From the NCBI RefSeq assembly GCF_012563145.1, contig NZ_CP046230.1, positions 64,333 to 128,332 on the forward strand: a DNA stretch of 64,000 nucleotides. Reading direction: 5' to 3'. The position numbers and the translations under genes were made by a program. Position 1 is the first letter of the stretch. The number at the start of each line of letters is the position of its first letter. Of this stretch, positions 47,667 through 55,799 are shown piece after piece. This DNA comes from Enterobacteriaceae endosymbiont of Plateumaris consimilis (GTDB lineage Bacteria; Pseudomonadota; Gammaproteobacteria; Enterobacterales; Enterobacteriaceae). The notes beneath the pieces are model-generated. The model was not told where the DNA came from, searched no databases, and was given only the letters and a program-made list of their open reading frames with translations.

Positions 47667-48758
47667 ATGAATAATTCTATTATTAAAAAACTTAATTTAT
47701 TACATAAACGTTATATATATATTGAAAAACAACTAAATAACTATAAAATATATAATAATCAAGTAAACTTACGTAATCTTTCAATAGAATATGTTAATTT
47801 ATCTATTATAATTAAACCATTTATAAAATGGAAAAATTTACAATTAGAGTTAATTAATAATAAAGAATTATTATATGATGAAGAATTATATTCTATAGTT
47901 TTGGAAGATAATAAAAATATTAAAATTAAACAACAACAAATAGAAAAAGAAATTAAAATGCTTTTGTTATCTCAAAGTAATAATGAAAATAATAGAAATT
48001 GTTTTTTAGAGATTAGAGCAGGATCAGGAGGTAATGAAGCAGCTATTTTTGTAGGTAATATTTATAGAATGTATGTTCGTTATGCTGAATCTAAATTTTG
48101 GAAAGTTAAAATAATTAATGTTCATTATGGTGATCATGGAGGATATAAAGAAATTATATTAAAAATAGTTGGGCATGGTGTATATGGAAAATTAAGATTT
48201 GAATCAGGTGGACATAGAGTACAAAGAGTTCCTGAAACAGAATCTCAAGGAAGAATTCATACTTCTACATGTACTGTAGCTGTTATGCCAGAATTATCTA
48301 AATCTGAAGTTCCAGAAATTAATAATAACGATTTAAAAATTGACACTTTTCGTTCTTCTGGAGCTGGTGGACAACATGTTAATACAACTGATTCTGCTAT
48401 TCGTATTACTCATATACCAACAGGAATTGTTGTAGAATGTCAAGATGAACGCTCACAACATAAAAATAAATCTAAAGCTTTATCAGTATTAGTAGCTAGA
48501 ATTAATGCAGCAGAAGTAGCTAAAAGAAATAAAAATGAATCTGTAACAAGAAAAAATCTATTAGGAACTGGTGAACGTTCTGATAGGAATAGAACATATA
48601 ATTTTATTCAAAAAAGAGTAACAGATCATCGTATTAATTTAACAATTTATAGATTAGATGAAATTATGAATGGTAAATTAGATTTATTAATAGAACATAT
48701 CTTACATAAATATCACACTGATCTATTATTGTCTATATCAAAAACAAATGAAAATTAA
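47667..48758 (+). CDS. prfA: Peptide chain release factor 1
   Basis: The 363-residue factor ends translation at UAA and UAG. The catalytic GGQ is in [15 protein letters not shown] near residue 233, and [15 protein letters not shown] near 113 opens domain 2. Length matches E. coli (360). The Gln of GGQ is the target of PrmC, whose gene overlaps the 3' end of prfA by 11 bp. Confidence 0.96.
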
Positions 48759-49584
48759 AAAATGGTTATTTTATGCTAATATTATTTTAAAAAAAAATAA
48801 AATATACTTATCTAAGATAGAATCTGAAATTTTGTTATCTTTTGTTCTTAATAAATCTAAATTTTGGATCTATGAATTTTATGAAAATTATTTAAATAAG
48901 ATACAATTAAAAAAATTAATGCAGTTATTAAAAAGAAGAATTAATGGGGAACCAATTGCTTATATATTAGGATTTTGTGAATTTTGGTCATTAAAAATTA
49001 ATGTTACGCCATTAACTTTTATACCTAGACCAGATACCGAAATTTTAGTAGAACATACGTTAAAAAAAATTACATTTAATACAAAAAATATATTAGATTT
49101 AGGAACAGGAACTGGAGCCATAGCTTTAGCTATAGCTAGTGAATATAAAAAATTAAATATTATTGGGATAGATATAATTCCAGAATTAATTAATATTGCA
49201 AAAAAAAATGCAAATGAATTATCTATTCATAATGTTAATTTTATACAAAGTAATTGGTTTAATAACTTAAAAAATAAAACATTTGATATTATTGTAAGCA
49301 ATCCTCCATATATTAAATATAAAGATTATTTATTTCTTGAAAAAAGCATTAAATTTGAACCAATATATTCTTTAATAGCAGAGGATAATGGATTATCTAA
49401 TTTTAATTCTATTATTTTACAATCTACTAAATATTTAAATAATTTTGGATGGATAATATTAGAACATGCATTTAATCAATCTGATCAAATTATAAAAATA
49501 TTACAAGAAAAAAAATTTAAAAATATAAAAACTTGTTTAGATTATAATGGTAATAAAAGAATAACTTATGGACAAAAAACTTAA
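48748..49584 (+). CDS. prmC: Release factor glutamine methyltransferase
   Basis: The 278-residue SAM-dependent enzyme methylates the GGQ glutamine of release factors. The SAM-binding [15 protein letters not shown] is near residue 117 and the catalytic NPPY in [10 protein letters not shown] near 186. [11 protein letters not shown] near 95 is also diagnostic. Length matches E. coli (277). It overlaps prfA, so the enzyme and its substrate are co-translated. An A9 run early in the gene is in frame in the genome. Confidence 0.95.
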
Positions 49585-49799
49585 TTTTTTTATAATATTT
49601 TAATAAATTAAAAATTATTTTATTGTTATATAAATAAATATCACTATAATAATTATTATTAATTCTAAATAATTAATATTCTTGTTATATTTATTTGTAT
49701 AATATATTTATAACATAAAAAATATTAAACATATATATTTTATTATATTAGTTATTTTAAAATTTTATTAAATTCAATTAATTAATATAAAAGAAAAAA

Positions 49800-51092
49800 A
49801 TGCAACAAAATAATTATTCATCTAATTTTATTAATAAAAAAATAGAAAAAAAAAATCAATTATTAAGTAAAAATAAATTATTAGAAATTGATCATAGAAT
49901 ATTTGGAAAAAAGCTTAACTTATATCATTTTCAAAATGAATCACCAGGAATGGTCTTTTGGCATAATAATGGTTATATTATTTTTCATGAATTAGAAAAA
50001 TTTTTACGTATAAAACTTAAAAAATATAATTATCAAGAAGTAAAAACACCATTAATAACAGATAGTGTAATTTGGAAAAATACAGGACATTGGAAAATTT
50101 ATAAAAAAGCAATTTTTAGTACATCTTCTGAAAATAGAAAATATTGCATAAAACCTATGAATTGTCCAGGACATATACAAATTTTTCAACATGGTTTTAA
50201 ATCATATAAAGATTTACCTTTAAGAATTGCAGAATTTGGTATATGTCATAGAAATGAACCCTCAGGTTCTTTACATGGTTTAATGAGATTACGCAGTTTT
50301 ACTCAAGATGATGCTCATATATTTTGTACACAAGATCAAGTTTCAATAGAAATTGAAAATTGTATTCATATGATGTATGAAATTTATCAAATTTTTGGTT
50401 TTAAAAACTTTTTAGTAAAATTGTCTACAAGGCCTAAAAATCGTATTGGAAATAATGAAATATGGGATGAATCTGAAAAAAATTTAGCTATGGTTTTAAA
50501 AAAATTAGATATAACTTTTAATTATCAGATTGGAGATGGTGCATTTTATGGACCTAAAATAGAATTTTCTTTCTTTGATTGTTTAAATCGTGAATGGCAA
50601 TGTGGTACAATACAATTAGATTTTGCCTTACCAAGTTGTTTAAATTTATTTTATATGGATTCTGAAAACAAACGTAAAACACCTGTAATAATTCATCGTG
50701 CTATTTTAGGTTCTATAGAAAGATTTATTGGTATTCTTCTAGAAGAATATTCTGGTTATTTGCCTATTTGGCTGGCTCCATTACAAATTATTATAATTAA
50801 TATAAGCAATAAACATATTAATTATGCTATGAATTTATTAGAAATAATAAAACAAAATAATATTCGAGTCCAAACAGATCTAAAAAATGAAAAAATAGCT
50901 TTTAAAATTAGAAAATATACTATACAACATATACCTTATATTTTAATATGTGGAGATAAAGAAATAAAAAATAATACAGTTTCAATTCGTGATTGTTTTG
51001 GTAAAGATTTGGGAAATATGAAAATTCGTGATATTATTAGCAAAGTAAAAAAAGAAATTAATAATTATAATATTCATCAATTGGGGAGATAG
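49800..51092 (+). CDS. thrS: Threonyl-tRNA synthetase lacking the TGS and editing domains
   Basis: The 430-residue product covers only the catalytic and anticodon-binding parts of ThrRS (E. coli 642). It starts in the linker before the catalytic core and aligns from about E. coli residue 215: LEIDHRIFGKKLNLYHFQ is near residue 28. The zinc ligands Cys (MNCPGH), His (DDAHIF) and His (VIIHRAILGS) are kept, as are motif 2 (FGICHRNEPSGSL) and the anticodon domain. The N1 (TGS) and N2 editing domains, about 225 residues, are absent, and the 215-bp upstream gap is too short for them and shows no remnant. An A10 run (49846-49855) is in frame. Confidence 0.95.
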   Translation: MQQNNYSSNFINKKIEKKNQLLSKNKLLEIDHRIFGKKLNLYHFQNESPGMVFWHNNGYIIFHELEKFLRIKLKKYNYQEVKTPLITDSVIWKNTGHWKIYKKAIFSTSSENRKYCIKPMNCPGHIQIFQHGFKSYKDLPLRIAEFGICHRNEPSGSLHGLMRLRSFTQDDAHIFCTQDQVSIEIENCIHMMYEIYQIFGFKNFLVKLSTRPKNRIGNNEIWDESEKNLAMVLKKLDITFNYQIGDGAFYGPKIEFSFFDCLNREWQCGTIQLDFALPSCLNLFYMDSENKRKTPVIIHRAILGSIERFIGILLEEYSGYLPIWLAPLQIIIINISNKHINYAMNLLEIIKQNNIRVQTDLKNEKIAFKIRKYTIQHIPYILICGDKEIKNNTVSIRDCFGKDLGNMKIRDIISKVKKEINNYNIHQLGR

Positions 51093-51095
51093 GAT

Positions 51096-51635
51096 ATTAA
51101 AAGTGGAAAAAAAATAATACAACTTAGACCTAATAAAATTAATGAAGATATTAAAACTAAAATTGTAAGATTAATAGGTTTTAAAGGTGAACAAGTTGGT
51201 ATTGTTGATTTAAAAATTGCACTCATGAAAGCAAAAGAAATTGGATTTGATTTGGTAGAAATTAGTCCTAATGCAAATCCTCCTGTATGTCGTATAATGA
51301 ATTATGGTAAATTTTTATACGTAAAAAATAAAACATCAAGAGAACAAAAAAAGAAACAAAAAATTATTCAATTAAAAGAAATTAAATTTAGACCAAATAC
51401 AGACAAAGGAGATTATCAGGTTAAATTACGTAGTTTAATTCGTTTTTTAAAAAAAGGAGATAAAATAAAAATAACTCTTAGATTTCGAGGTAGAGAAATG
51501 GTACATATCCAAATTGGATTTGCTATGCTAAATAGAATAAAAAATGATTTAAATCATTTAGCTTTAGTTGAATATTTTCCTAAAAAAATTGAAGGAAGAC
51601 AAATGATAATGGTTTTAATACCTAAAAAAAAGTAA
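51096..51635 (+). CDS. infC: Translation initiation factor IF-3, AUU start
   Basis: Read from the ATT at 51096 the product is 179 residues, full length (E. coli 180): (M)[18 protein letters not shown] opens the N-domain, then [20 protein letters not shown] and [18 protein letters not shown] follow. No ATG precedes it in frame, and the first internal ATG (51225) would delete 43 residues of the N-domain. E. coli infC also starts with AUU, which lets IF-3 repress its own translation. The ATT lies 3 bp after the thrS stop, with GGGGAG upstream as ribosome site. Confidence 0.93.
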
Positions 51636-52327: not shown

Positions 52328-53314
52328 ATGATATCTGATCTTAATAAAATAATAATACATGCAAAAAAAGAAATTAATTTAATTAATAATATTAAAGAAT
52401 TAAATATTTTTAAAACAAAATATTTAGGAAAAAAAGGATATATATCATCACAATTTCTATTATTTAAAAAATTAACAAAACAAGAAAAAATTAAAAATAG
52501 TACAATTATTAATAATATAAAAAAACAAATTAAAGAATTAGTTAAACAACATAAAAATAAATTGGAATCTAATAATATTAAATTTAAAGTTTTAAATAAA
52601 AAAATTGATATTACACTTCCTGGTAGATACCTAAAAATAGGTTCTCAACATCCCATAAATACTGTAATTTATGATATTGAAAATTTTTTTATAAAATTAG
52701 GATTTAAAATAATAGAAAGTCAAGAAATAGAAGATACTTATCATAATTTTGATGCATTAAATATATCAGAAAATCATCCTTCAAGAACTAAACAAGATAC
52801 TTTTTGGTTAAATAAAAAATATTTATTACGTACACAAACTTCTAATATGCAAATTAGAATGATGAAAATTTTAAATCCTCCTATAAGAATATTAACTTCA
52901 GGTAAAGTATATCGAAACGATTATGATAAAAAACATACTCCTATGTTTCATCAGATAGAAGGATTATTAATAGATAATAATATTAATTTTTTAGAACTAA
53001 AAGAAATATTGTCTTTATTTTTAAAATATTTTTTTGACAGTAAATTAAAAATTAGGTTTAGACCTTCTTATTTTCCATTTACTGAACCTTCTTTAGAAGT
53101 AGATATTATGGGAACAAATAATAAATGGATTGAAGTTTTGGGAGCAGGAATGGTACATCCTAATGTATTAAGTAATATTAATATTAATTTATTAAATTAT
53201 TCTGGTTGTGCTTTTGGGGTTGGAGTAGAAAGATTAGCTATGTTGCGTTATAATATTCATGATATACGTTTATTCTTTGAAAATGATATACGTTTTCTTA
53301 AACAATTTAAATAA
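52328..53314 (+). CDS. pheS: Phenylalanyl-tRNA synthetase, alpha subunit
   Basis: The 328-residue class II subunit holds the aminoacylation site of the alpha2-beta2 enzyme. An N-terminal coiled coil (about residues 1-95) binds tRNA. ALNISENHPSRTKQDTFW near 146, TSGKVYRNDYDKKHTPMFHQ near 194 (motif 2) and GFGV-type motif 3, here CAFGVGVERLAML near 296, are all present. Length equals E. coli (327). pheT starts 4 bp downstream. Confidence 0.96.
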   Translation: MISDLNKIIIHAKKEINLINNIKELNIFKTKYLGKKGYISSQFLLFKKLTKQEKIKNSTIINNIKKQIKELVKQHKNKLESNNIKFKVLNKKIDITLPGRYLKIGSQHPINTVIYDIENFFIKLGFKIIESQEIEDTYHNFDALNISENHPSRTKQDTFWLNKKYLLRTQTSNMQIRMMKILNPPIRILTSGKVYRNDYDKKHTPMFHQIEGLLIDNNINFLELKEILSLFLKYFFDSKLKIRFRPSYFPFTEPSLEVDIMGTNNKWIEVLGAGMVHPNVLSNININLLNYSGCAFGVGVERLAMLRYNIHDIRLFFENDIRFLKQFK

Positions 53315-53318
53315 AAAT

Positions 53319-55799
53319 ATGATTAAATTAAGTGAACTATGGTTACGAGAATGGATTACTTATAATAATATAGAATTATTATCTGAACAATTAACAATGT
53401 TAGGATTTGAAGTAGAAAAAATTGAACCAATTTGTAAAATAAAAATAGATAATATATTTATAGGACAAGTAATTGATTGTCAGTTTAATAATAATAAAAA
53501 TATTTATAATTTAACTATAGATATAGGAAAAAATAAATTATATAAAATTAAATCAAATGCAATTAATTGTAAAAATAAAATAAAAATAATTTTTGCAACC
53601 GTCAATTCATCTTTATATAAAAAATATATATATAATCAGAAATTTAATTTTTTATTACAATCGGAAGGATTATTATGTTCTAAAAAAATGTTAGGATTAA
53701 AAGATAATATACGTAGCAATGATAAAAACCATATATTAATATTAAATAATAATGCTAAAATAGGACAAAATGCTTATAAATATCTACAATTAAATGACAA
53801 TATATTATATATTAATATACCATATAATCGTTCTGATTGTTTAAGTATTATGGGTATAGCAAGAGATTTATCAACTAAAATCAAAAACGATAATTATTTA
53901 TTCAAATTTCCTTATGAAGATTATTTAACTAAAAACAAACAAAATAATATAATCAACGTTCATATAAATGAAAATGTTAATAAATATAATTTAAGTTATT
54001 TTTATTGTGTTATTCAAAATGTTGATTTACAAAATAAAATACCATTTTTAATAGAACAAAGATTACAAAGATCTGGAATTTTAATATCAAATAATAATCC
54101 TTTATTAAATATCAGCAATTATATAAATTTAGAATTAGGATATCCAGTATATTTTTACGATCTTAATAAAATTAAAGGTGATATATATATAAAAGAATAT
54201 AAAAATATTAATGATAATGTTTTAATTGATACAAATAATAACAAAATAACTTTATTAAAAAATACTTTAATAATTAAAGATAAAGAAAAAATATTGTCTA
54301 TTCCAATTTTAGCACAAAATAAAGAAGTTATTATTGATAAAAATACAAAAAATATTTTATTAGAATGTTTCTTTTTAGATACCATGACAGCAGATAATTT
54401 ATCTAATCAATATAAAATATTTAATTTATTTTCACATCTTTATCAAAGAGGATTAGATCCATTAATACAAAAAAAAATATTAATAAGAACTATAAATCTA
54501 ATATTAAAAATATATGGTGGTAAAAGAAGTAAAATTAAAGTAGTTAATACTGATAATTATATTAATAATTTTTTAACATTAAAAACAATTAAGCTAAATT
54601 TTAAAAAAATTAAACAAATATTAGGATTTGTTATAAAAACAGATAAAATATTTAATATCATGAATAAATTAGGATTTAAAATAATATTAAAAACAGATAT
54701 GAATTGTATTATACAAATACCTAGTTGGAGATATGATATAAAAATTGAAGCTGATATAATAGAAGAAATAATACGCATATATGGGTATAATAACATTCCT
54801 AATAAACATATTAAATTAAATTTAATTGAAAAAAACATTAATGATAATAATAGATTTTTCAAATCTAATAATATTACAAAAATTAAAAATTTTTTAATTA
54901 ATAAAGGATATAACGAAGTTATTAACTATAGTTTTATAAATCCTAAAATACAATATTTAATCTTTCCTAAAGAAAAATTTATAAAATTATGTAATCCTAT
55001 TTCAATAGAAATGTCTGTTATGCGTACTTCTTTATTATGTGGATTAATAAATAATATAATTTATAATCAAAATAGACAACAAAAATCTTTACGTTTTTTT
55101 GAAATTGGATTATGTTTTAAAATAAATAAAAAATTAGAATTTGGTATATCTCAAAAATTAATGTTTGGAGGAATAATAAATGGTAAATTACATGAAGAAC
55201 ATTGGTCTTTATCTAATAAAAATGTAGATTTTTATGATTTAAAAGGTGATATAGAATGTATATTTGATCTTTTAGGAAAAATTTCTAAAATAGAGTTTAG
55301 ATCTATATCTGATATAAATTTTTTACATCCTTATAAAGGATCATCTATATATTTAAATAATTCTTTTATTGGATATATTGGAGTAATACATCCCTATATT
55401 CAAACATATTTAGGAATTAATGAAAATACTGTTTTATTTGAATTAGAATGTAATGAAATATTAAATCATACAGAAACAATAATTAAAACAATATCAAATT
55501 TACCATTAAACCGTAGAGATATTTCATTAATAGTAAAAGAAAATATTCCTTTTATAAACATTATACAAGAATGTAAAAATTTTTCAATAAAACAAATTAT
55601 TGACATAAATTTATTTGATGTATATCAAGGTATAAATATACCTAAAGGATATAAAAGTTTTACAATAAGTTTTATTATACAAGATAATACTCATACATTA
55701 AAAGATAAAGAAATTAATGATATTATACAATTATGTATAAATAAATTAAAAATAAAATTTAAAATTATATTAAGAGATAAAAATTATGACTTTAACTAA
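53319..55799 (+). CDS. pheT: Phenylalanyl-tRNA synthetase, beta subunit with degenerate editing site
   Basis: The product is 826 residues from the ATG at 53319 (MIKLSELWLREW, as in the family); an upstream in-frame ATG at 53259 lies inside pheS. E. coli PheT has 795. The C-terminal region is conserved (NRQQKSLRFFEIG, DFYDLKGDIE, LNRRDISLIV, GYKSFTISFI). The B3/B4 editing region is drifted: the family block QPMHAFD reads YPVYFYD, so the His is lost, the GGIFGGE loop is replaced by IPILAQNKE, and HTDASHRYERG reads IFNLFSHLYQRG. Proofreading of Tyr-tRNA-Phe is therefore doubtful. It overlaps the ihfA start by 14 bp. Confidence 0.95.
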   Translation: MIKLSELWLREWITYNNIELLSEQLTMLGFEVEKIEPICKIKIDNIFIGQVIDCQFNNNKNIYNLTIDIGKNKLYKIKSNAINCKNKIKIIFATVNSSLYKKYIYNQKFNFLLQSEGLLCSKKMLGLKDNIRSNDKNHILILNNNAKIGQNAYKYLQLNDNILYINIPYNRSDCLSIMGIARDLSTKIKNDNYLFKFPYEDYLTKNKQNNIINVHINENVNKYNLSYFYCVIQNVDLQNKIPFLIEQRLQRSGILISNNNPLLNISNYINLELGYPVYFYDLNKIKGDIYIKEYKNINDNVLIDTNNNKITLLKNTLIIKDKEKILSIPILAQNKEVIIDKNTKNILLECFFLDTMTADNLSNQYKIFNLFSHLYQRGLDPLIQKKILIRTINLILKIYGGKRSKIKVVNTDNYINNFLTLKTIKLNFKKIKQILGFVIKTDKIFNIMNKLGFKIILKTDMNCIIQIPSWRYDIKIEADIIEEIIRIYGYNNIPNKHIKLNLIEKNINDNNRFFKSNNITKIKNFLINKGYNEVINYSFINPKIQYLIFPKEKFIKLCNPISIEMSVMRTSLLCGLINNIIYNQNRQQKSLRFFEIGLCFKINKKLEFGISQKLMFGGIINGKLHEEHWSLSNKNVDFYDLKGDIECIFDLLGKISKIEFRSISDINFLHPYKGSSIYLNNSFIGYIGVIHPYIQTYLGINENTVLFELECNEILNHTETIIKTISNLPLNRRDISLIVKENIPFINIIQECKNFSIKQIIDINLFDVYQGINIPKGYKSFTISFIIQDNTHTLKDKEINDIIQLCINKLKIKFKIILRDKNYDFN

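Follow-up and report, generated by a model that had tools for sequence, protein, structure and literature searches.

How can a bacterium charge tRNA-Thr, and what becomes of its proofreading, when its threonyl-tRNA synthetase (ThrRS) begins only shortly before the catalytic core? This question is raised by the thrS gene of the endosymbiont of Plateumaris consimilis, whose genome of 517,860 bases is made up of two contigs, contig 1 having 512,724 bases. The window analyzed here is a stretch of 64,000 nucleotides of this genome, and the features at issue, given in window positions, are the following.

48748..49584, + strand: prmC, the upstream neighbor of thrS in 24 of 24 genomes of the genus (ORF list, genus comparison)
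49585..49799, + strand: spacer of 215 bp with 6% GC, the expected place of TGS and N2; no remnant found
49800..51092, + strand: thrS, core-only ThrRS of 430 aa with an ATG start (Pfam, TIGR00418, AlphaFold2, Foldseek)
50118..50750, + strand: class II catalytic core, PF00587, residues 107-317 (Pfam)
50163..50165, + strand: zinc ligand Cys122 (E. coli C334), invariant in alignment A1 and in 24/24 genus members
50316..50318, + strand: zinc ligand His173 (E. coli H385), invariant in alignment A1 and in 24/24 genus members
50694..50696, + strand: zinc ligand His299 (E. coli H511), invariant in alignment A1 and in 24/24 genus members
50784..51053, + strand: anticodon-binding domain, PF03129, residues 329-418 (Pfam)
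51096..51635, + strand: infC (IF3), which starts with ATT 3 nt past the thrS stop (E. coli gap comparison)
53259..55799, + strand: pheT with an altered B3/4 editing domain (alignment to E. coli, Pfam)

The ThrRS of the symbiont lacks TGS and N2

A reading made from the sequence only had described the gene product as a ThrRS without TGS and editing domains, and this observation is confirmed. In a Pfam scan, the only matches of the 430-residue protein at E up to 1 were PF00587 and PF03129; in the E. coli enzyme, the same library additionally identified TGS (4-61) and tRNA_SAD (172-219). Thus, the class II core, the zinc site and the anticodon domain are common to the symbiont enzyme and to ThrRS of the E. 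coli type (TIGR00418; PDB 1qf6; 58-59% identity over the core), whereas TGS and N2/SAD, which complete the full bacterial architecture TGS-N2-core-anticodon, are present in the latter and absent from the former. The match to TIGR00418 covers profile positions 157-564 of 565 with 542.9 bits vs a cut-off of 383.65. In pairwise alignment, the protein starts at approximately E. coli residue 214 and is gapless from the DHRK motif onward. An in-frame stop lies three codons 5' of the ATG, giving an open frame of 433 codons; therefore, a longer product from an upstream start is impossible in that frame. The spacer was also said to hold no trace of the missing part, and indeed 22 N-terminal queries gave no match upstream of thrS in the window at E up to 1.

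Downstream, the 3-nt gap between thrS and infC is as annotated in E. coli. ATT is an unusual start codon, and it is the one used by infC in E. coli. A search for tRNA-Thr in the 64-kb window found none there.

Conserved residues and the predicted structure point to a charging enzyme

The retention of zinc ligands and class II motifs noted in that reading held across the genus of reed-beetle symbionts. In 24/24 members, identity to E. coli extends to all three zinc ligands, to 13 of the 14 other active-site positions considered and to 4/4 anticodon-domain positions; the one exception is position 376, which is L in all 24 and V in E. coli. These positions were chosen for the roles that they are taken to have in the enzyme.

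An AlphaFold2 model (alignment A1, 26 rows) has a mean pLDDT of 85.3 and a pTM of 0.83, with parts below pLDDT 50 confined to residues 1-22 and 155-164. The best Foldseek matches are catalytic-domain structures of E. coli and Salmonella ThrRS (TM 0.93-0.96 by target; 59-60% identity; including 4hwo, 8h99 and 1evk), followed at lower rank by ThrRS of Stenotrophomonas, human, Cryptosporidium and yeast mitochondria. The engineered truncated E. coli ThrRS structures 1evk and 4hwo have nearly the same extent as the symbiont protein (TM 0.94-0.95 by target), and residues 31-428 of the query pair with 2-399 (of 401) in 1evk and with 4-401 (of 411) in 4hwo. The modeled fold equals that of truncated E. 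coli ThrRS; 1evk and 4hwo are laboratory constructs, whereas the core-only enzyme of the symbiont is natural. Judging from the conserved residues and the model, the 430-aa enzyme should activate Thr on zinc and charge tRNA-Thr. A bacterial ThrRS without the editing domain is described as dimeric, with full activation and less efficient charging (cited in PMC4267643, in part).

Consequences for the proofreading of Ser-tRNA-Thr

In ThrRS, the zinc rejects Val but cannot exclude Ser (PMC4787780 and PMC7373986, both in part). What the domain analysis demonstrates is the loss of the domain that would hydrolyze Ser-tRNA-Thr post-transfer; because N2 is absent, Ser-tRNA-Thr would not be hydrolyzed once formed. 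Overall, we consider it very probable that erosion of the 5' end of thrS removed TGS and N2, and that charging was kept while post-transfer proofreading of Ser-tRNA-Thr was lost.

In this model, the 5' half of thrS would have eroded, with the ancestor of the reed-beetle symbionts as the simplest place for this event, leaving a core and an anticodon domain that should suffice for activation of Thr on the active-site zinc and for charging. Rejection of Ser would be left to the active site, to any weak pre-transfer editing and to competition from Thr. Thr would be made by the symbiont, and Ser would be supplied from outside. According to the available part of PMC7289800, Thr biosynthesis is retained in Plateumaris symbionts and no non-essential amino acid is made; consequently, the error could be held down by an abundance of Thr relative to Ser. 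Some Ser would be expected at Thr codons and would plausibly be tolerated by the symbiont. In E. coli, the translational repression of thrS needs the N-terminal part of ThrRS (PMC7373986, in part). This part is gone in the symbiont, and the spacer gave neither an Rfam match nor, with a fold z-score of -1.29, a sign of a structured leader.

Core-only ThrRS is not restricted to laboratory constructs and this symbiont. Yeast mitochondrial MST1 (3ugq, 4eo4) is also a natural core-only enzyme without an editing domain (PMC4267643, in part), and the symbiont ThrRS has the same architecture of core plus anticodon domain. The two share about 35% identity, and because MST1 is an organelle enzyme, the losses are independent. 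MST1 charges tRNA, edits pre-transfer and still forms Ser-tRNA-Thr (PMC4267643, in part). It is the best functional model for the symbiont enzyme.

The same precedent bears on the first alternative, namely that the core has compensated by better rejection of Ser or by strong pre-transfer editing, so that no mistranslation arises. The pre-transfer editing of the yeast mitochondrial enzyme is tRNA-dependent (PMC4267643, in part), and some ProRSs grew more specific after loss of editing (PMC11415595, in part). However, pre-transfer editing alone does not prevent mis-charging (PMC4267643, in part), and 16 of the 17 zinc and active-site positions are equal to E. coli in 24/24 genus members, which argues that there has been no obvious retuning of the active site. 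We regard compensation by the core as unlikely.

Search for an editing activity in trans

A second alternative is that editing is done in trans, either by another protein of the symbiont or by an imported host protein. Some archaea pair a ThrRS without the N-domain with a free-standing ThrRS-ed (PMC7373986, in part), INS-type deacylases are able to serve ThrRS (PMC11415595, in part), and the INS domain of ProRS and the SAD domain of AlaRS are still encoded in the symbiont genome. The sequence-only reading had likewise offered a free-standing editing protein as a way out. Our search for one covered SAD, tRNA_edit, DTD and N1+N2 and lent this suggestion no support. PF07973 (SAD) matched the genome once; the 884-codon frame concerned is AlaRS by Pfam (the fragment given to Pfam was cut at the N-terminal end), and PF04073 (tRNA_edit) had a single match, inside ProRS. 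PF02580 (DTD) had no match in the genome at E up to 1; as a control, this profile was positive in 10 of 14 known genomes.

Nor did the missing N-terminal domains turn up as a separate gene. When N1+N2 of a full-length relative was searched against all 24 genomes of the genus with E up to 10, no free-standing N2 was found; the matches, in 4/24 genomes at E 0.003-0.05, fell only in frames of 885-892 codons, which are taken to be AlaRS. This search ran without a positive control, and similar local queries did recover decayed N2 in other lineages. In ProRS, the residues aligned to K279 and H369, which are presumably functional, are R and Y. Thus, the symbiont resembles the archaeal ThrRS-cat/ThrRS-ed system in having a core-only catalytic ThrRS and differs from it in that the SAD, DTD and N1+N2 searches found no separate partner. 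Given these results, editing in trans appears very unlikely, and we retain the model in which post-transfer proofreading was lost.

The short enzyme is fixed in the genus and under purifying selection

The short ThrRS is present in 24/24 genomes of the genus, in open frames of 417-450 codons. Among 17 non-genus genomes in the same search, the primary match lay in a frame of 638-695 codons in 16, and the remaining one (G037, 85% complete) had a weak match only. prmC lies 5' of thrS in 24/24 genus genomes, and the spacer between them is 72-230 bp long with a GC content of 3-12%. Among the 80 named-genome loci listed, only one comes from a reed-beetle symbiont, namely L032 of the Donacia piscatrix symbiont, with a ThrRS of 421 residues; because L019 (G003) encodes the identical protein, the two were counted as one.

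Over 276 pairs of genus sequences, the Nei-Gojobori dN/dS has a median of 0.28 and a maximum of 0.42; these values are rough because silent sites are near saturation at ~20% GC. The ratio of mean pN to mean pS is 0.33 for the core, against 0.82 for the short leader preceding DHR. Core and leader clearly differ in this respect, and the ThrRS core is under purifying selection.

These data also dispose of the weakest alternative, which we consider extremely improbable: although the genome is strongly eroded and the protein has 430 aa instead of 642, the idea that thrS is decaying or mis-assembled, with full ThrRS function elsewhere, is at odds with the identical architecture in 24/24 genomes, the purifying selection, the conserved start region and prmC neighbor, and a protein search of the symbiont's own genome for a second ThrRS in which the only other match was ProRS. 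The possible misassembly upstream of 49800 that had been raised earlier is ruled out because the short enzyme is common to all 24 genomes. In the thrS profile search of this genome, three matches were counted, of which the best one is listed.

Editing sites of other synthetases

Loss of editing in host-restricted bacteria is a general phenomenon that is already described (Melnikov 2018, cited in PMC7373986, PMC11020763 and PMC11415595, each in part). In Mycoplasma, for instance, editing is lost in ThrRS, LeuRS and PheRS (PMC4014445 and PMC7373986, both in part). The changes in Mycoplasma ThrRS are mutations or deletions, the extent of which is not given in the available text, whereas in the symbiont the whole N-terminal half is gone. 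The loss in the symbiont is real and inherited, and it fits the known pattern of bacteria living only inside hosts.

We compared the editing sites of six further synthetases with those of E. coli; the roles of the residues named in this section are those we assume them to have. In LeuRS (L197, G000:C1:329400-333200), the CP1 editing domain looks strongly degenerate in a protein that is otherwise largely conserved: over residues 1-240, each 40-residue bin is 55-95% identical to E. coli, and the bins of CP1 over 241-400 have identities of 6/40, 10/36, 11/37 and 2/23. The TTRPDT motif has been lost (T252F), D345 persists, and the editing domain scores 90.8 bits in Pfam vs 269.9 in E. coli, still above the cut-off. 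PheT has H265Y, G318Q, G319N, T354N and A356F (E. coli numbering) with E334 kept, and its B3/4 domain scores 106.4 bits vs 252.7 in E. coli, also above the cut-off; PheT of the D. piscatrix symbiont is altered at the same five places. The true start of pheT is probably ~20 codons downstream of the annotated ORF start. ProRS (L114) has K279R and H369Y in an editing domain that is recognizable. C666 and H670 are kept in AlaRS, as are TTTPWT, H333 and D342 in IleRS; ValRS keeps TTRPET and has 13-28 identities per 40-residue bin over 201-360.

From these comparisons, the editing sites of LeuRS and PheRS look degenerate and that of ProRS perhaps so, and those of AlaRS, IleRS and ValRS look kept. 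The pattern of editing loss in host-restricted bacteria would thus be found in the symbiont as an absent N-terminal half of ThrRS together with altered editing sites in LeuRS and PheRS. In the available part of the review PMC7373986, no Mycoplasma is known that has lost three or more editing activities. We put forward tentatively, as a possibility that we take seriously without favoring it, that the symbiont has lost the editing of more than two enzymes. If true, the two-enzyme limit stated by the review for Mycoplasma would be exceeded, and the symbiont would reveal which kinds of error are too costly for a cell.

Recurrent loss among reduced genomes of Enterobacteriaceae

The earlier reading had taken the full enzyme to be usual in Enterobacterales and its truncation to be rare. 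The former stands for the larger genomes sampled and fails for many genomes of insect-symbiont size; the latter does not stand, because the same loss is present in 13 other genera of reduced Enterobacteriaceae besides the genus of the window. The sample comprised 392 genomes of the same GTDB family, with reduced defined as 1.2 Mb or less: 108 reduced non-genus genomes, five of the genus and 279 larger ones. Of the 108, 77 were re-searched, giving 51 with a full-length ThrRS and 26 without an intact N-terminal half, i.e. 25 core-only enzymes and one split gene (G242, genus g108). For the remaining 31, full length was read from E-values of 5.4e-182 or better (core-only ~1e-163). For most larger genomes it was likewise read from the E-value, and 276 of 279 imply full length. 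The other three, which have no intact full-length match, were set aside: G067 is 49% complete, G200 has thrS broken in two frames, and G349 is 84% complete and had no match. Altogether, the intact half is missing from 31/113 reduced genomes and from 0/276 larger ones (Fisher p 8e-19, kinship ignored). A further candidate, L038 (Spirabiliibacterium mucosae), was rejected as core-only because its N-terminal half is open in another frame, indicating a frameshift.

Both forms occur within each of five genera (g76, g94, g108, g132 and g136). A tree was built from 85 ThrRS cores: eight of the 24 genus members, the 26 others without an intact half, E. coli, and full-length enzymes from reduced (44) and large (6) genomes. 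It requires a minimum of 11 changes (10-12 across bootstraps), of which 7 are forced by well-supported branches, in a tree with unsettled bootstrap and sixteen rows of unusual composition; a quick tree gave 8.

Stages of decay are visible among these relatives. The N2 catalytic residues, which we take to be E. coli H73, H77, C182 and H186, could be read in 44 of the 51 full-length ThrRSs from reduced genomes: all four are kept in 10/44, one or two are changed in 9/44 and three or four in 25/44. All 10 enzymes with an intact site are from genomes of about 600 kb or more. The core-only loci number 51, with 24 from the genus, L032 and 26 others; clear N-terminal sequence was present upstream in four, namely the N-terminal part of the split gene in G242 (E 3e-46) and remnants in G394 (4e-8), G268 (1e-8) and G335 (4e-4), all three with stops in the aligned stretches. 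The match in G154 (L146; E 0.13) is doubtful. Those of L010 (E 0.08) and L023 (E 0.50), which both overlap prmC, and the weak ones of L158 (E 0.63) and L160 (E 0.39) were taken as chance. Because no decay stage is left in the reed-beetle symbiont genus (remnants in 0/24), it is from other lineages that the sequence of steps is deduced. Pieced together in this way, the route would begin with loss of N2 catalytic residues, continue with stop codons in the N-terminal half and translation from an internal codon, and end with decay and then deletion of the remnant.

Carsonella has been reported to be without any thrS (PMC2175510, in part). The term 'synthetase' has no occurrence in the reed-beetle paper PMC7289800, nor have 'thrS', 'tRNA synthetase' and 'aminoacyl' in PMC12508126, and titles and abstract starts, among which subscription literature is thinly covered, contained no report of a core-only ThrRS in an insect symbiont. 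The reed-beetle symbionts offer a dated, clade-wide case in which the proofreading domain of ThrRS is wholly absent and the core is kept under selection, among relatives in which the same loss occurred several times and its stages can be seen in living genomes. Mistranslation tolerance and the question of which editing activities are indispensable thereby become testable by comparison and proteomics. If our reading is true, the serial and parallel loss of the ThrRS N-terminal half among symbionts of insects would represent a replicated natural experiment on mistranslation.

Three further observations concern individual core-only enzymes. The metagenomic contig bacterium isolate CSMAG_44 (L083) encodes a core-only ThrRS of about 432 aa with about 49% identity, and no N-terminal half is visible in three upstream frames. 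In four g118 genomes (L167-L170; contigs of about 258-305 kb), the core-only thrS has 6-7 in-frame TGA codons, which suggests that TGA is read as an amino acid. Finally, five core-only ThrRSs of g22 (L148-L152) have Ser for Ala at E. coli position 513, which is presumably close to the threonine pocket, and this substitution is possibly a change in amino-acid selection.
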